Source of the DNA: Bdellovibrio reynosensis | GTDB lineage: Bacteria > Bdellovibrionota > Bdellovibrionia > Bdellovibrionales > Bdellovibrionaceae | NCBI RefSeq assembly: GCF_022814725.1 | Contig: NZ_CP093442.1 | Location: 2,604,001 to 2,668,000 of the forward strand | Direction: 5' to 3' | DNA: 64,000 bases | In this document: one piece after another, positions 5,521 to 47,502 of the stretch | Layout: each line of letters begins with the position of its first letter | Position numbering within the stretch: position 1 is the first letter of the stretch | Program-made: the position numbers and the translations under genes | The notes under the pieces: model-generated | Told to the model about the DNA's origin: nothing | Seen by the model: the letters and a program-made list of their open reading frames with translations, nothing else | The model's database searches: none

Positions 5521-5991
5521 ATGAAATTCATTTTGTACAATCTCGCCACAGCCAAGGAAGACTGGGCCGATGAAGTGAGCGAGTTGTACAAAAAGAAGAT
5601 CTCGTTTTTTATTCCGTTTGATATCCAAGTTCTGAAAGCAAAAAAGTCAGCTCGCGAAGACGCTGACTTTAAACGCAATGAAGAGTCTGAATTAATTCTT
5701 AAAAATCTAAACAGTGATGATTACGTCGTGCTTTTTGACGAGCGTGGTTCTGCATTTGATTCTATTCAGTTTTCTAAAAAGATCGAAAATATTCTGGGAA
5801 GCTCTAAGAAGCGCTGTATTTTTATTATTGGTGGCGCTTTTGGGGTGAACGAAGAAGTTCGTAAAAGAGCAGATCTGAAGGTTTCACTATCACCCATGGT
5901 GATGAATCATCTGATGGCCCAGGCAATGTGCTTAGAGCAAATTTACCGGGCCTTTACGATTATCAAAAAAATTCCCTATCACAATATCTAG
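5521..5991 (+). CDS. rlmH: 23S rRNA pseudouridine-1915 N3-methyltransferase (SPOUT)
   Basis: 156 residues, typical length. The SPOUT SAM-binding knot shows IIGGAFGVNEEVRKRA (about 100-115), followed by the invariant C-terminal LEQIYRAFTIIKKIPYHN. It modifies helix 69 of 23S rRNA in the assembled ribosome. It is the last gene of the obgE operon and starts 2 nt after the nadD-rsfS stop. Its TAG stop interlocks with the TAG of the convergent gene at the palindrome CTAG (5988-5991). Confidence 0.97.
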   Translation: MKFILYNLATAKEDWADEVSELYKKKISFFIPFDIQVLKAKKSAREDADFKRNEESELILKNLNSDDYVVLFDERGSAFDSIQFSKKIENILGSSKKRCIFIIGGAFGVNEEVRKRADLKVSLSPMVMNHLMAQAMCLEQIYRAFTIIKKIPYHNI

Positions 5992-40539: not shown

Positions 40540-41991
40540 ATGCAAATCTTAGTCTTATTATTATTTGTAATATGGGGTTCGAACTCGTTGGCTCATATTG
40601 ATACAATCAGCGGATCTTTCATTCAGAGTTTCAATGATTTTACAGAATCACGTCTGGATTTAGACGTTAACCATGTTCGGACATATAACAGTCGTTCGAC
40701 TTTTTCAGGTGGATTCGGCGAAGGCTGGTGTACTGACCTAGATCTTTCAATAAGTGAAAATAATGGTCATCTGTTACTTCGTTATTGCGGCGATGGGAAA
40801 GAAGTAGTTTTTAAAAAAGAAGGCTCGGTCTTTCTAGCAAAGGACTTTCGCGATGGAAGAATACATAAGGAAAATCAATCCTATGTACGCACCCTTATTG
40901 ACGGGACTACTGAAAGATATCAAGGGGGAAAATTAAAATCTATCACAGGGCCCGATACAATAAGGAATCTTCGTTTTATTTATTCTAAAATGAATCAGTT
41001 AGAAAAGATTCAAGACGGATCAGGAAGAAGTCTTTTGTTTGAACGAAACAAAGACCATTTAATCACAAAAATTTCTTTTAAAAGCAATCGGAACCTTGAA
41101 CAAAAGGTAATAGCGATTTTTGAATATTCAAATGCGAAGTTAGTTAGTTCTATGAATTTTGAAGGTGAGCGCTATCACTACTTTTATGATGGAAAGAATA
41201 AACTAAACAAAGTCATCTGGCCTGATAAGGGATGGATTAGTCTAACTTATCACCCAACTACAGGGTGGGTAAGTGATTTAAAGGGAACAGATATCTGTTC
41301 AGAAAATTTTGATTATAAACTTCGCACGGAAGGCAATCCGATAGCTTATAACGTTGACGTTACGAAGACATGTATTGGTAAAGCCCCGATCAAAACAACT
41401 TACACTTACAAATATTCAGCTGATTATAGCCAACTTAATTCGATGACTGTTAAAAATGGTGAAGGCACTTCTGAATATCTTCTTAATAATTCCGAAGAGC
41501 CGATCGAAATTATAAAAACATTAGGCAAAGATGTCTTTAAAACCTCAATTAAGCGCAATGAGTACGGTCAGACCGTTGAGGTATCATCTCCTTATAAAAA
41601 AACTTCTTTTTCTTACAGTAGAGGAAAAGCTGGTCACTTGGTTTCACAGGTTGATTACGAATCTTTCTTAAACGGGGTTTCTTCGGAAAAAGGGGGGTAT
41701 AAATTTACTTATGATAAAGAAGGCCGGTTAGCCTCGGCGACCCCTCTAGATAAAACTTCCATATTATTCAGTTATGATGCGCAAGGAAGACTAAGTAAAA
41801 CTCGGCAAGGAAATATTGAAGTCGAACATTTTTATGAAGGTGATTCAAAGGATGCAAAGGAACTTATTGTAGAGGGCAAGAAAATTCCAAATATTTTGGA
41901 TGAATCGCAGTTGGGGCTTAAGTACAGAACACAAATCGAGCTTTCTCGAGAATATGATTTAGTAATGAATCTTGCGCAACCTAACTATTAG
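40540..41991 (+). CDS. Exported RHS/YD-repeat protein (short, no toxin tail)
   Basis: 483 residues. Signal peptide (MQILVLLLFVIWGSNSLA), then a DUF6531-like opening (HVRTYNSRSTFSGGFGEGWCTDLDLSI, with CGDGKEVVFKKEG). From about residue 105 onward come RHS/YD-type repeats (GGKLKSITGPDTIRNLRFIYSKMNQLEKIQDGSGRSLLF; TYDKEGRLASATPLDKTSILFSYDAQGRLSKTRQG). The canonical core end PxxxxDPxG before a toxin is missing, and the protein ends without a toxin domain. Full-length RHS shells are over 1000 residues. It is likely a small exported shell or adhesin. Divergent from the phosphatase pair. Confidence 0.75.
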   Translation: MQILVLLLFVIWGSNSLAHIDTISGSFIQSFNDFTESRLDLDVNHVRTYNSRSTFSGGFGEGWCTDLDLSISENNGHLLLRYCGDGKEVVFKKEGSVFLAKDFRDGRIHKENQSYVRTLIDGTTERYQGGKLKSITGPDTIRNLRFIYSKMNQLEKIQDGSGRSLLFERNKDHLITKISFKSNRNLEQKVIAIFEYSNAKLVSSMNFEGERYHYFYDGKNKLNKVIWPDKGWISLTYHPTTGWVSDLKGTDICSENFDYKLRTEGNPIAYNVDVTKTCIGKAPIKTTYTYKYSADYSQLNSMTVKNGEGTSEYLLNNSEEPIEIIKTLGKDVFKTSIKRNEYGQTVEVSSPYKKTSFSYSRGKAGHLVSQVDYESFLNGVSSEKGGYKFTYDKEGRLASATPLDKTSILFSYDAQGRLSKTRQGNIEVEHFYEGDSKDAKELIVEGKKIPNILDESQLGLKYRTQIELSREYDLVMNLAQPNY

Positions 41992-42012: not shown

Positions 42013-42134
42013 TTTCAAGGATTAGCTGAAGTCCGGTGAATATCTGCTCCGCCAAGTCGGAGTGTCTACAGTCCGGCACTGTGCCGCAACGGTGATAAGA
42101 GGTGTCCTCTTTAAGTCCGATCGCCTTCTTGAAA
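42013..42134 (+). promoter_or_regulatory. Cobalamin (adenosylcobalamin-class) riboswitch
   Basis: P1 arms TTTCAA (42013-42018) and TTGAAA (42129-42134) close the element. The core has GAAGTCCGGTGAA (near 42028-42040), a CTCCG/CGGAG hairpin (42047-42051 with 42058-42062), then CCGGCACTGTGCCGCAACGGTGA (42073-42095; the family's CxCxGxxCCGC-x-AC-x-GT block). It lies directly upstream of a BtuB-like gene, as in many proteobacteria. Expected to shut expression when B12 is plentiful. Confidence 0.9.
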
Positions 42135-42151
42135 CAAACCTCGGAGCAAGG

Positions 42152-43996
42152 ATGAAAAATATCTTCGTCATGGGCCTTCTATTAGGCTCTTTATCAACTT
42201 ACGCGCAAATAAATCCCGTTGTGGTGGAATCTTCAAGTGTCACTGAAGAATCTGCAGACACCTCATCTTGGGTCACGGTCTTAGATGAAACTGAAATCAA
42301 AAACCAAAACAAATCCACAGTAGCCGATTTACTGCGCGATGTTCCGGGTGTGGAAGTCGTAAGGCAAGGTGGGGTTGGACAAACCACTTCGATATTCATT
42401 CGCGGAGCCCGATCAGAAGACACCCTAGTATTAATTGATGGAATCAGAGCCAATGAACTTATGTCACCTGCGGGTGGTTTTGATTTTTCATCTTTGGCTT
42501 CAGTTAATATCGCAAGAATAGAAGTCCACCGTGGTCCACAAAGCGTGCGCTTTGGAAGCGGAGCTATTGGTGGTGTGATAAATATCATCACTAAAGAGGG
42601 TAAAGGTCCGTTGGCAGTTTCTTATGTAGCTGAAGCGGGAAGTTATGATACTTTACGAGCTGGCGTCTCTGTTTATGGCAGACAAAATAATCTTGGTTAT
42701 TCCGCGGGAGTAGAGGGTCTTAAAACGGCAGGATTTTCAGCAGCGGATAAATCCCAAGGAAATACTGAAGCTGATGGTGCGACAGTTGCAACGGTTTCTT
42801 CTAAACTCACTTACCATGCAAGTGAAACTGGTAAGGTAGTGGGCAGTTTGCGCTACTCACAAGCAGAGGTGGATCTCGATTACGCCGGCGGAACTCAAGG
42901 TGATGACCCGAATTCGTCTGCGGTCTTTAAACAACTAATTACAGGCGTAACAGGTGTAAATCATTTCTTTTCGAACACTCTTCGCTCTTCATTAAGTTTC
43001 ACATTTTCAGAAGTGACTCGCTTTGATGAAAACAAGGCGGATCCAGTTCACGTTGATACATCAGAAAACTATTTTATCAGTGAATTGCAACAGATCGAAA
43101 CAGCCCATGAATGGCTGCCGACAAGCACCCAGTCGTTAAAGTTTATTCTTTCCTATCAAGATGAAAGTGGTAAGGGTTACTCGAACTACAGTGGATTTGC
43201 AGCTCCATTTGCACGAGAGCGCCTGAAAAATACGGGGGAAGGGTTCTTCTATTCCTATGATGATAACAAATGGTTATTTGATGCGGGCCTTCGTTATGAC
43301 CAACAAAGTGAAAAAGGACAGGCGGTTTCAGTTCGCTCTTCCGTGGGACGCAGAATAGCTGCATCAGATACATTGGTAAGATTAACATATGGAACTGGAT
43401 TTAAAAATCCTAGTCTGTACCAACTTTATTCAAGCTACGGTGATTTGAGTTTAAAATCCCAGGATGGAAAAGCGCTTGATATCTCAGTTGAACAGCAGCT
43501 TGGCGAACGCCTTGAATTTTCAGCAGATCTATTTAGAACCTTCTATGATGATCTAATCGACTTCGTATCTGGTAAATACAAAAATATAGCTTCAGCACAA
43601 AGCGAGGGTATTGAAGTTCAAGGTATGTACAAAGTACTGAACAGCCTAGCGCTGAAAGCTTCTTATACATACTTAGAAACCAAAGATAACACGACAAACT
43701 TGCGGCTTTTACGCCGACCAATGAATGCTTATTCTGTTTCAGCAATTTATTCACATGAAAAGATTGAAGGAAGTGTGCAGTACCGCTTCAGTGGCGAACG
43801 AGATGATCTTGATCCGAACACGTTTGCTAGAACAGAAAATAGTTCCTATGACGTTGTCAGTGTAAAAGCTAGTTACAAACTTTCCCAAGATCTAAAAATA
43901 ACTGGTAGAATCGAAAATCTTTTGGATCGTCAATATCAGGAAGTATTGGGTTACGGTACGCCAGAAAGGTCCTTCTTCGTCGGAATTAGTAATTAA
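42152..43996 (+). CDS. btuB: BtuB-like TonB-dependent cobalamin receptor
   Basis: 614 residues from the ATG at 42152 (GGAG 5 nt before). Signal peptide (MKNIFVMGLLLGSLSTYA), plug domain about 35-160 (VADLLRDVPGVEVVRQGGVGQTTSIFIRGARSEDTLVLIDGIRAN, then IEVHRGPQSVRFGSGAIGGVINIIT), and a barrel ending in a C-terminal FFVGISN, close to the usual aromatic ending. TonB-box-like start is not obvious. The immediately upstream cobalamin riboswitch supports vitamin B12 as the ligand. The extra open frame from 42062 is the riboswitch itself. Confidence 0.93.
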   Translation: MKNIFVMGLLLGSLSTYAQINPVVVESSSVTEESADTSSWVTVLDETEIKNQNKSTVADLLRDVPGVEVVRQGGVGQTTSIFIRGARSEDTLVLIDGIRANELMSPAGGFDFSSLASVNIARIEVHRGPQSVRFGSGAIGGVINIITKEGKGPLAVSYVAEAGSYDTLRAGVSVYGRQNNLGYSAGVEGLKTAGFSAADKSQGNTEADGATVATVSSKLTYHASETGKVVGSLRYSQAEVDLDYAGGTQGDDPNSSAVFKQLITGVTGVNHFFSNTLRSSLSFTFSEVTRFDENKADPVHVDTSENYFISELQQIETAHEWLPTSTQSLKFILSYQDESGKGYSNYSGFAAPFARERLKNTGEGFFYSYDDNKWLFDAGLRYDQQSEKGQAVSVRSSVGRRIAASDTLVRLTYGTGFKNPSLYQLYSSYGDLSLKSQDGKALDISVEQQLGERLEFSADLFRTFYDDLIDFVSGKYKNIASAQSEGIEVQGMYKVLNSLALKASYTYLETKDNTTNLRLLRRPMNAYSVSAIYSHEKIEGSVQYRFSGERDDLDPNTFARTENSSYDVVSVKASYKLSQDLKITGRIENLLDRQYQEVLGYGTPERSFFVGISN

Positions 43997-44002
43997 ATGA
44001 TT

Positions 44003-44025
44003 AGGGGAGCTGAAAGGCTCCCTTT
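44003..44025. terminator. Terminator between btuB and the Rieske-flavodoxin gene
   Basis: Stem GGGAGC (44005-44010) with GCTCCC (44017-44022), extended by a G-T and an A-T pair; a short T-run follows and an A/T-rich run precedes. It is weaker than the other terminators here because only three T residues follow on the plus strand. Confidence 0.55.
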
Positions 44026-45152
44026 CAAATTTGCGAATTTAAATTGGGATCGTCTTCATGGTCCCGGGTGTTGAAGGCTTTCCTTCCTGCGCGGTTTTGC
44101 AGTGTGCCCGGTGCATTCGCAGCTATCAATGAATGAGATAAAGTAGCACAACGATTTACCAAATCCTTTGTAGCATCTACGAGAACTTTGCTTTGCTGAA
44201 CATAACGGACGTTGTGTTCCATGTTTTCCATACTCCACCCTAAAGAGTGGGCGATAAATGGAAACGGAGGCAGGTGAAAACCTAATTCAGAGAAGAATCC
44301 CATCATACTGCCAGCAACCGCCTGAACATTGTCTTGGCCTCCAGTGATAATAAATCCCGCAACTTTATTGCAGATAAGCTGATTATTATGAATGGTGATT
44401 TGATTTTGAATACAGTTAAGCCGTTCGACCATTTTAAAATAAAGCGCACTGGCGGAACCCCAACGAATCGGTGTGGCAATAAGTATGATATCTGCCCAAT
44501 GCACCAGATCTTCATAGACTTGATCCAACTGATCGTTAGGATCAAGCTGCGTGATCGAACAGGGCCAAATACAGGCATGTGAACTTTTTGAATAAAATCC
44601 CTCGCAGTGCCTGAAATTAAGTTCACGCAGTTTAACCAAATGAGTATCAAATCCCAGAAATTTTGCATGTTTCAAAGAAGATTCCAACAGCATCTCTGAA
44701 GTCGAAGGACGGGGATATTTTAAATCCATAGCTGTGGTAGAAATTCCAGCAACCCGAAGCGGACCTGGGGCCCTCTCTGGTTTTCGCGCCAAGTGCATAG
44801 GTTCATGAAATTTATGATTACGTGTCGTAAGGCGATTTAAACTTAATAACACGCGGCCGTTTTCGGTTTTTACAGGAAAGGTTGGTACGCGATCTTCTTC
44901 AAAACCAGGTTCACCTTCACCTGTTTTCCAGTGAAACTTATAATAATGCCAAGGACAGACGACGTAATCACCTTCAAGGCAACCATCACCCAATGGTCCG
45001 CCGACATGATTGCAAACACCAGAAATTGCACTGAATTGCCCGTCTTTAAAAACCAGAGCAATCTTTTTACCAGCTACTTCAATTTGCTGCAGCGGACGCT
45101 TGCTTAATTCAGCAACTTCGCCAAGGTCATGCCATTCTTCTGATGAAACCAT
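44025..45152 (-). CDS. Fusion of Rieske 2Fe-2S ferredoxin and flavodoxin-like NAD(P)H oxidoreductase
   Basis: 375 residues in one frame. Residues 1-110 are a Rieske domain: C47 and H49 in CNHVGG, C66 and H69 in CPWHYYKFH (spacing C-x-H-16-C-x2-H). Residues about 130-345 form a flavodoxin-type domain of the NADPH-dependent FMN reductase group, with PLRVAGISTTAMDLKYPRPSTSE, IILIATPIRWGSASALYFKMVERLN and VAGFIITGGQDNVQAVAGSMMGFFSELGF. Such domains are usually separate proteins; here an electron path FMN to 2Fe-2S in a single chain is implied. The electron donor and final acceptor are unknown. Confidence 0.85.
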   Translation of the reverse strand: MVSSEEWHDLGEVAELSKRPLQQIEVAGKKIALVFKDGQFSAISGVCNHVGGPLGDGCLEGDYVVCPWHYYKFHWKTGEGEPGFEEDRVPTFPVKTENGRVLLSLNRLTTRNHKFHEPMHLARKPERAPGPLRVAGISTTAMDLKYPRPSTSEMLLESSLKHAKFLGFDTHLVKLRELNFRHCEGFYSKSSHACIWPCSITQLDPNDQLDQVYEDLVHWADIILIATPIRWGSASALYFKMVERLNCIQNQITIHNNQLICNKVAGFIITGGQDNVQAVAGSMMGFFSELGFHLPPFPFIAHSLGWSMENMEHNVRYVQQSKVLVDATKDLVNRCATLSHSLIAANAPGTLQNRAGRKAFNTRDHEDDPNLNSQI

Positions 45153-45261: not shown

Positions 45262-46671
45262 CTATTCTTCATCGCTCATATTCAAATCGCGTAAATTTAG
45301 ATGATACGAATACTCTAAATCAGGGATTTTAATATTATTTTTGCAAACAATCGGGATGCTGTTTTGACTAAAAGGTATTACATGAAGATTTTTTTCAAAA
45401 TCTTGCAGGTAGGTACTATATTTTTCTAATCTGTCCTTTTTATCTTCGGTAAATCGAACTTCAGAAAGATTTTTTAAAAGATCAAAAGTCGGAAGATTTG
45501 CCTTAGCCAGTAATGAACCAAGAATATCTAAATACCCGTCGGGGTCGGGTATAACCCCCTGATAGGGGATAAAAATAAGATCAAAGTCACCCTCTTGCAT
45601 AGGCGTCGATAGTTCTTTGCCCTTAACATTTATATGATTAACTTCAAACCCCGCGTCTTCATAGCCTTTAACTATCTTTTCGACGGCGGAAGAAAGAAAT
45701 ATTCCGTACGGAAAAACAATTTTAATTTTCTGTTTGTGTTGAAGCTTTGGGAGATGGGTAGTCGCTGCCGATTTAGCATAATAAGATTCAGGCATTATAC
45801 CGTTAGGTAGATATGTATCTAGAATTCCGTCGAACTTAGTTAATACATTCTGGGTATCTCGGACAAAACGGGCAACGTCGGCCACTAATTTTCTATTCGC
45901 AAAGTCTTTCAGAAATGTATTGTTATGATTAAGGATAATGTGAGTGGTGACCAAACTGAATGTTGGATGACTTTTATACTCTGGTTTTAGATTTCTTGCC
46001 AAAGCCACCTCAAGAGGGGATCCCATTGCTAGGTTTGCTCTGCCGGAATTTAAAGCATCTACAGTAAGATCCACATCTCTTTCGATCTTAAAATAGTAGC
46101 GGTCTATATTTGAAGTAGGAAAGGGATAGGTACGACTTTTTCTTAAGCACCAAGTTTTTGTTTCGCTAGGTTCGAATTCATAGGGCCCTGATCCAATGAC
46201 ATAATTTGAAGTAGATTGATGGCTTATGATCCCGAATCCAGGAAGTGATAGTAGTTCTAAAAACGCGGGGTAAGCACCTTTAAGACAAAATTCGACAGTT
46301 CGATTATCGATCACTAAGATTTTATCTAAAACATTTCGTAGATAGCTTGCCACTACGGATTTTGAATTTTCATCAAGATGTCGTCTCAATGAGAAAGCAA
46401 CATCTTGTGCGAAAATGGGTTCAGCATTATGAAAATGCGCCTGTTCGGATAAAGAAAAAGTATAGGTCCTTTGATCCGCAGAAATTTTCCAGCTTTGTGC
46501 TATTCCGCTGACAATACCTTTTTTAGAATCTTTTTTTACTAAGGTGTCCAAGAAAAGATTTAAAACCTGAAACTGCTGATATCCTCTAGCACAGATGGGG
46601 TCTTGTAAAACACCTTCTGTTGTTAAAATTGCATGGATTTCGCTAGCGGTAATAGGATTATTTAATGGCAC
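45262..46671 (-). CDS. Extracellular solute-binding family 5 (oligopeptide-like) protein without signal peptide
   Basis: 469 residues with a GTG start (AAGGA 6 nt before). The SBP_bac_5 fold is shown by SGIAQSWKISADQRTYTFSLSEQAHFHNAEPIFAQDVAFSLRRHLD and the later PYEFEPSETKTWCLRKSRTY. Normal members begin with a signal peptide, but here the codons just before the start include an in-frame stop, so none exists. It could be a cytosolic peptide sensor, as in SgrR-type proteins, whose SBP-like domain follows an HTH, or an old exported gene that lost its leader. No permease genes lie near. Confidence 0.65.
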   Translation of the reverse strand: MPLNNPITASEIHAILTTEGVLQDPICARGYQQFQVLNLFLDTLVKKDSKKGIVSGIAQSWKISADQRTYTFSLSEQAHFHNAEPIFAQDVAFSLRRHLDENSKSVVASYLRNVLDKILVIDNRTVEFCLKGAYPAFLELLSLPGFGIISHQSTSNYVIGSGPYEFEPSETKTWCLRKSRTYPFPTSNIDRYYFKIERDVDLTVDALNSGRANLAMGSPLEVALARNLKPEYKSHPTFSLVTTHIILNHNNTFLKDFANRKLVADVARFVRDTQNVLTKFDGILDTYLPNGIMPESYYAKSAATTHLPKLQHKQKIKIVFPYGIFLSSAVEKIVKGYEDAGFEVNHINVKGKELSTPMQEGDFDLIFIPYQGVIPDPDGYLDILGSLLAKANLPTFDLLKNLSEVRFTEDKKDRLEKYSTYLQDFEKNLHVIPFSQNSIPIVCKNNIKIPDLEYSYHLNLRDLNMSDEE

Positions 46672-46712: not shown

Positions 46713-47351
46713 TTAAGCGATATACATTAATAAGCAAAGGTACTGAAAACCAGTTCCAGCCATCACGCACAAGTGCCACATGCCATGGCCGTGTTTGATT
46801 TTTTCGTCGTTAAGGAAAAAGATCATACCGATTCCATAGGAAATAAAACCGGCTAATACCAACGCAAATCCGATCGGTGGAATTGCATCCATTAAATGTT
46901 TTAAAGCAGGCGCAACTGTTGCAGCCATCACCGCGTAAAGCAATAGTGATGGGGTTCTATTTTTTGGAGATACAACGACCTCCCACATGATACCTAGAAC
47001 TGCGAGCGTCCACACCACACCAAGAATAATCCACCCGGTGGTACCTCGCAAAGCAAGGATCGCATACGGAGTATAGCTACCAGCAATTTTCAAATAAATG
47101 CCGATGTAATCAAGCTTGCGATAAAACTCTTTTTTTTCGGCGCGGGAACCATGATAGATCGTAGAAATGCAGTAAAGCCCCACTGTCGTTAACGCATAAA
47201 CTGTGAACGAAAAAAGTTTCCAGGTATCTTGTTTTTGTGCGGCTAGAAAAAGTAAAAGCACGCAACCCATTAACGCAAGGAAAGCACCGACTGCATGTGA
47301 AGCTGTATTAAATTTTTCCCCGTGCTGGACCTGAGTTATCATTTGTTTCAT
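46713..47351 (-). CDS. Haemolysin III/PAQR family membrane protein
   Basis: 212 residues from the ATG at 47351 (MKQMITQVQHGEKFNTASHAVG). Seven hydrophobic helices and the family signatures HAVGAFLALMG near the start, YCISTIYHGSRAEKKEFYRKLDYIGIYLKIAGSYTP and the late HGHGMWHLCVMAGTG with histidines that bind zinc in PAQR-type proteins. Labels such as haemolysin are historical; most members have unknown activity. Monocistronic. Confidence 0.88.
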   Translation of the reverse strand: MKQMITQVQHGEKFNTASHAVGAFLALMGCVLLLFLAAQKQDTWKLFSFTVYALTTVGLYCISTIYHGSRAEKKEFYRKLDYIGIYLKIAGSYTPYAILALRGTTGWIILGVVWTLAVLGIMWEVVVSPKNRTPSLLLYAVMAATVAPALKHLMDAIPPIGFALVLAGFISYGIGMIFFLNDEKIKHGHGMWHLCVMAGTGFQYLCLLMYIA

Positions 47352-47502
47352 GTTTTTAAATGTTAGCAATTCTACAAACAAATTGCAGCAGTCAAAAATC
47401 TCAAGTCGGGATTCTATTTCACTTTTTTCATAAGCTAAAAATTATCCGCTTTTCACATTTAAAAACCTAAAACGTAAGTCTTGAGATGAAACTGTGATTT
47501 GT

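Follow-up and report, generated by a model that had tools for sequence, protein, structure and literature searches.

A conserved Rieske–flavodoxin-like fusion protein with a cysteine triad in Bdellovibrio reynosensis, a candidate flavo-iron-sulfur oxidoreductase

Our analysis confirms that the predatory bacterium Bdellovibrio reynosensis encodes a fusion protein of 375 amino acids in which a Rieske [2Fe-2S] domain precedes a flavodoxin-like domain, and places it in a family scattered over several phyla. Sequence comparison established both domains and the order in which they stand, the ligands of the Rieske cluster, the residues of the flavin site, a cysteine triad and the family-wide conservation of these features. 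Occupancy by FMN and a [2Fe-2S] cluster is likely. We tentatively read the protein as a self-contained soluble flavo-iron-sulfur oxidoreductase, in which the Rieske domain would feed the FMN of a substrate-specific flavin domain, and assign to this reading a probability of roughly 0.4. The gene is located in the window, i.e. the whole analyzed stretch of 64,000 nucleotides, of a host genome that consists of a single contig of 3,582,323 bases. Its features are:

44025..45152, minus strand: whole gene, Rieske–flavodoxin fusion, 375 aa (ORF list, Pfam, family alignments)
44874..45137, minus strand: Rieske [2Fe-2S] domain, residues 6-93 (Pfam, alignments, fold match to the dioxygenase ferredoxins 2qpz and 5bok)
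45012-45014, 45006-45008, 44955-44957 and 44946-44948, minus strand: Rieske ligands C47, H49, C66 and H69, respectively
44760..44837, minus strand: interdomain linker, residues 106-131 (family alignment)
44121..44759, minus strand: flavodoxin-like (FMN_red) domain, residues 132-344 (Pfam, models; closest solved fold RosB)
44697..44741, minus strand: residues 138-152, the loop predicted to hold the FMN phosphate (S138, P147, R148, S150, T151, S152)
44559..44606, minus strand: cysteine triad C183 (44604-44606), C194 (44571-44573) and C198 (44559-44561), a possible second metal site
44424..44474, minus strand: residues 227-232 (TPIRWG) behind strand 3, plus E243, predicted to contact the isoalloxazine
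44328..44345, minus strand: residues 270-275 (TGGQDN) behind strand 4, a loop predicted to belong to the flavin site

The open reading frame 44025-45152 starts with an ATG, and an in-frame TAG lies four codons ahead of it. Pfam recognized the Rieske domain (PF00355, residues 6-93) with an E-value of 7e-15 and 55.2 bits against a curated cut-off of 20.3, and the FMN_red domain (PF03358, residues 149-296) with an E-value of 1.1e-10 and 41.7 bits against a curated cut-off of 24. No Pfam match to Pyr_redox_2 was obtained for the protein at E 0.001. The ligand numbering C47-H49-C66-H69 proposed in the sequence-only reading agrees with the alignment, and its view of a soluble protein is in line with an N-terminus that looks cytoplasmic by inspection. 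Its designation of the second half as an NADPH-dependent FMN reductase-like domain holds for the FMN_red match, while NADPH dependence comes from the Pfam name only.

The family set comprised 52 distinct genes picked by alignment score, with repeats of the same gene dropped. A relaxed pattern found the C-terminal motif in all 52, and no gene was excluded for lack of it. Left out were two duplicates (L030 and L031, of L010 and L006), the weak matches L082 and L076-L078, and the loci L002 and L017-L029, which match the Rieske part only; L043 and L044 were each counted though their flavin domains are identical. The search for the same architecture bore out both domains and the Rieske-first order that had been read from the single sequence: order and all four Rieske ligands are kept in 48 out of 48 intact members. 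Two further members (L046, L080) are cut by a contig end ahead of the Rieske part. In two others (L086, L088) the reading frame is broken and the Rieske half can be read in the adjacent one, including H69 in one case. These broken frames are possibly assembly errors. Since order and ligands are held across a 52-member family spanning several phyla, a chance or local fusion is excluded.

Conservation differs between the parts of the protein. Among the 48 intact members, the Rieske domain shows a mean pairwise identity of 45%, the linker one of 39% and the flavin domain one of 67%, with 81-82% in the cysteine and flavin (FMN) loops. Within the linker (residues 106-131) none of the 26 columns is invariant, and its length is fairly fixed: R133 follows H69 at a distance of 64-65 in 37 out of 49 members and of 63 to 74 overall. 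Cytochrome bc1 Rieske proteins carry an additional cysteine pair beside the ligands. No extra cysteines were found next to the ligands in our family, in which positions 48, 51, 52, 67 and 68 are N, G, G/A, P and W.

Two AlphaFold2 models were obtained, one from 31 sequences (mean pLDDT 84.5, pTM 0.75) and one from 47 sequences (mean pLDDT 87.6, pTM 0.82), the alignment of the latter holding three weak stand-alone relatives. In both, a beta domain resembling Rieske proteins is combined with a flavodoxin-like domain of five strands. RosB (5mji), involved in roseoflavin biosynthesis in Streptomyces davaonensis, ranked first for the two models in Foldseek (E-values of 1.9e-11 and 8.5e-12) and in VIA (Z 22.3 over 206 residues, rmsd 3.0; Z 22.6 over 214 residues, rmsd 3.3). 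The next VIA entries had Z-scores of 19.3 and 19.0; SP1951, ArsH and flavone reductase followed RosB at Z 17.7-19.3, flavone reductase itself at 17.9 and 17.7. The 50 VIA matches listed for the second model span Z 15.5 to 22.6. Since many flavodoxin-like proteins trail RosB by no more than 3 to 7 Z units, similarity in fold does not prove that the chemistry is RosB-like. A C-terminal profile gave four sequence matches, RosB being the best (E-value 8.5e-9) and flavone reductase the second (0.0014). The Rieske half superimposed on the ferredoxins 2qpz, 5bok and 1vck with TM-scores of 0.85-0.89 by target length. Among the structure matches listed, none spans both halves by its description or length.

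For the flavin site, positions of the fusion protein were paired by us with the FMN contacts of the flavone reductase of Flavonifractor plautii (7d38) via HMMER alignments. The available passages on that enzyme name Met10, Ser14 and Asn15 as FMN phosphate contacts and, as further contacts, Ile89, Glu91, Lys92, Val144, Gly146, Ser147 and Trp149 together with Asp103 from the partner chain (PMC7862272). At the equivalents T151, S152, I229, W231, G232, E243, G272, Q273 and N275, between 49 and 52 of the 52 family members share their residue. Hence the loss of flavin-binding residues, which the sequence-only reading had named as evidence that would speak against it, was not seen: the predicted contact positions are near-invariant. 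At several of them the residue differs from that of flavone reductase, as in W231 versus Glu91. Near-invariance with other residues argues for a retained and specialized pocket rather than for identity with flavone reductase.

The triad C183-x10-C194-x3-C198 is invariant in all 52 members, whereas C247, the next most conserved cysteine apart from the Rieske ligands, is present in 41. In the models it lies in the loop between strands 2 and 3, among the least certain inner regions of both (pLDDT of residues 181-190 and 191-200: 60 and 67 in the first model, 69 and 74 in the second). Iron-sulfur flavoproteins (Isf) presumably hold their cluster motif in this same loop. According to the available passages, the Isf motif CX2CX2CX5-7C most likely serves a [4Fe-4S] cluster (PMC3164229). 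This compact motif is absent from our family, as positions 186 and 189 carry no cysteine in any of the 52 members, and the different spacing argues against membership in Isf. The fusion protein may nevertheless work like Isf. The corresponding loop of flavone reductase also holds several cysteines in the alignment; neither 'cysteine' nor 'iron-sulfur' appears anywhere in the text published on that enzyme (PMC7862272). A divergent stand-alone relative (L082, 1471-2223, minus strand; genome G421, from the phylum of a Myxococcaceae MAG) scored 112 bits and matches FMN_red. A Rieske domain is missing from its frame, the TPIRWG loop is lost, and a C-x6-C-x3-C arrangement is kept. In this relative the triad persists while the flavin motif decays. 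Neither the triad nor the broad distribution of the fusion had been pointed out in the sequence-only reading.

The genomic surroundings did not point to a partner. A gene similar to solute-binding proteins (45262-46671, minus strand; SBP_bac_5, E-value 6.9e-34) ends 109 bases before the start of the fusion gene on the same strand and begins 41 bases after a PAQR/HlyIII gene (46713-47381), which lies further upstream in the same orientation. Downstream, a BtuB-like TonB receptor gene (42062-43996) is convergent. The SBP_bac_5 protein has no evident signal peptide by eye and may be cytoplasmic. Elsewhere in the window, 40540-41991 (plus strand) encodes a protein with DUF6531 and RHS repeats that has no recognized C-terminal domain. 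The numbers of promoter-like sites (4 against 4.0 expected) and of terminator-like sites (3 against 1.7 expected, sd 1.3) are close to those of shuffled sequence. Pfam assigned 20 ORFs adjacent to or near family genes to unrelated families or to none. Clustering of ORFs at 24 family loci and at 13 loci of the Bdellovibrio group revealed no conserved neighbor, the largest groups comprising 3 out of 24 and 5 out of 13 loci, and the neighbors found in the window recur beside none of the clustered loci. With shared neighbors confined to such small groups, a functional partner could not be assigned from gene context, and with no shared neighbor cluster a dedicated protein partner is not visible. 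In L043 and L044, a globin-like ORF (5561-5989, plus strand; PF01152, E-value 4.9e-5 in L043) ends where the fusion ORF starts, a layout seen only in these two near-identical loci.

Further candidate roles were rejected. The genome has no match to the oxygenase family PF00848, a search that is validated by matches in 4 of 14 control genomes; a role as donor to a Rieske oxygenase of this type was discarded for this reason. A defense role was discarded as PADLOC gave no match for the fusion protein or two of its neighbors. Three other Rieske proteins are encoded in the genome. One (L002, 127-1755, minus strand) combines an N-terminal Rieske domain with Pyr_redox_2 and a Reductase_C match; the two others (L108, 1423-3009, minus strand; L109, 103-1848, plus strand) join an FAD-dependent DAO domain to a C-terminal Rieske domain of the CPCHG form.

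In the reading that we favor, the C-terminal RosB-like flavodoxin domain would bind FMN, and its tightly conserved active site would be specific for a substrate. At the N-terminus, the Rieske domain of ferredoxin type would act as a built-in one-electron port through which a general donor of the cell supplies the flavin with electrons, and the reduced flavin would then reduce a small molecule. The triad near the flavin loops may form an additional site on the electron path, for a metal or an iron-sulfur cluster, or a group of catalytic thiols. A substrate-specific flavoenzyme is favored by the conservation at flavin and triad, the lack of a partner gene traveling with the fusion, and a nearest fold that is itself substrate-specific; the higher conservation of the flavin domain compared to the Rieske domain is expected if substrate chemistry occurs at the flavin. 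Electron transfer between the two cofactors is likely, although the two domains could also use separate partners. Its direction is a matter of slight preference for Rieske to FMN, the reverse being nearly as likely. In iron-sulfur flavoproteins, electrons pass from the iron-sulfur center to FMN. Many FMN_red proteins, on the other hand, accept hydride directly from NAD(P)H, which would favor the opposite course. The protein would then be a fused reductase and ferredoxin, taking hydride from NAD(P)H at the flavin, splitting it into single electrons and passing these by way of the Rieske cluster to an external protein acceptor. This is the direction, FMN to iron-sulfur, that the sequence-only reading suggested, and Rieske to FMN agrees with the evidence no less well. 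This possibility, which we consider a serious one but short of even odds, is consistent with the FMN_red match and the ferredoxin-type Rieske fold, and L002 provides a precedent for the layout in the same genome. It is weakened by the lack of a PF00848 alpha subunit in the genome and of a conserved neighbor that might serve as acceptor, and by the Rieske domain being the less conserved half.

Compatible with either direction is a protein with three cofactors, in which C183, C194 and C198 bind a [4Fe-4S] cluster or another metal near the flavin. The invariance of the triad, with all other non-ligand cysteine columns at 41 of 52 or below, its position in the loop where Isf proteins carry their motif, and the C-x6-C-x3-C retained by the Rieske-less L082 argue for such a site. 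Three cysteines instead of four, a spacing unlike that of Isf, the low model confidence in the loop, and flavone reductase, which also has several cysteines there and is described without iron-sulfur, make it somewhat doubtful in our view. An oxidative enzyme of the RosB type, with a flavin or flavin-like molecule as substrate, would account for RosB being the best match by fold (Z 22.6) as well as by sequence (E-value 8.5e-9 with the C-terminal profile). At 20% identity, with a sequence match limited to the strand 3-4 core and a RosB chain of 257 aa that cannot also hold a Rieske domain, this is quite improbable. The patchy distribution, e.g. presence in 11 of 23 other congeners, might be expected of a non-functional remnant or chance fusion; retention of the four Rieske ligands and the active-site loops in all 48 intact members contradicts this, leaving it hardly any probability. 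The family might represent an undescribed class of iron-sulfur flavoenzymes with a Rieske [2Fe-2S] cluster, FMN and a C-x10-C-x3-C cluster or metal site, encoded by a single gene moved between phyla and acting on one specific substrate. We regard this full combination as rather unlikely.

Several known systems share parts of the fusion protein. RosB has the flavodoxin-like domain, and its chain is too short for a Rieske domain. It acts on the flavin itself, converting the 8-methyl group of FMN to an 8-amino group, and the fusion protein is likened to it by the modeled fold. The sequence alignment with RosB begins past the triad positions. RosB is described as a substrate-specific enzyme in the available passages (PMC6709556). 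Isf proteins are characterized, again in the passages available, as FMN-binding, with a conserved group of cysteines, and as very similar to NADPH-dependent FMN reductases (PMC3164229). Their CX2CX2CX5-7C differs from the C-x10-C-x3-C of the fusion. Dioxygenase Rieske ferredoxins (2qpz, 5bok, 1vck) resemble the Rieske half but are separate small proteins serving oxygenases. To our knowledge, Isf proteins lack a Rieske domain. Rieske–Pyr_redox_2 proteins such as L002, a layout that we take to be AIFM3-like, also join an N-terminal Rieske domain to a flavin reductase, yet their flavin half is an FAD reductase instead of a flavodoxin fold. Flavone reductase has corresponding FMN-contact positions at 19% identity and differs by a C-terminal substrate arm; no Rieske domain is reported for it in the available passages, which describe assays in which a separate enzyme, the NADH-FMN oxidoreductase Fre, provided the reduced FMN (PMC7862272).

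Among the open-licence PMC papers listed in the searches, no description or tested function of a Rieske–flavodoxin-like FMN fusion with the triad was recognized. Rieske–FAD reductase fusions are already known, one of them in this genome, and the flavodoxin-type version with the triad appears to be a further variant. Its fixed domain order, fixed active-site loops and extra triad make it a compact system for testing electron exchange between Rieske cluster and flavin within one chain. A family member is present in the named strain kdesi of Bdellovibrio bacteriovorus, which opens the family to genetics.

Of the 59 genomes searched, 15, the genome itself among them, have a full-length relative (E-value 1.2e-113 or better); of the 23 other congeners, 11 do. 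Scanning GTDB representatives yielded 23 loci in, by record names, Bdellovibrionota, Myxococcota, Gemmatimonadota, Pirellulales, Gammaproteobacteria and Candidatus Sulfopaludibacter. Sampling per phylum was done with the C-terminal profile, and the counts include the seed or own genome. Strong matches occurred in 7 of 101 genomes in the phylum of the Gemmatimonadetes MAG, with 3 weak ones in addition. For the other phyla, in which a limited number of candidates was scored per genome, the counts were at least 3 of 146 plus at least one divergent match (Myxococcaceae MAG, up to 19 candidates), at least 1 of 398, namely the seed itself (gammaproteobacterial MAG, up to 7), at least 6 of 119 (Sulfopaludibacter MAG, up to 23) and at least 17 of 191 (own phylum, up to 14). 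Plasmids contributed one full-length member, from Methylocystis sp. MJC1. With the C-terminal part alone as query, 129 plasmid records were matched, 128 of these below 60% identity, and those listed were named flavodoxin family protein or NAD(P)H-dependent oxidoreductase. The 5 phage records were partial matches covering at most 48% of the query. From the genome counts and the Methylocystis plasmid, the family appears rare, patchy and wide. In a quick tree, with 20 of 52 inner branches unresolved, the Bdellovibrionota sequences form two separate supported groups, the 12 rows that include the protein from the window (support 99) and a group of 11 rows (support 100). Since the second group includes a congener, this split suggests transfer or an ancient duplication.
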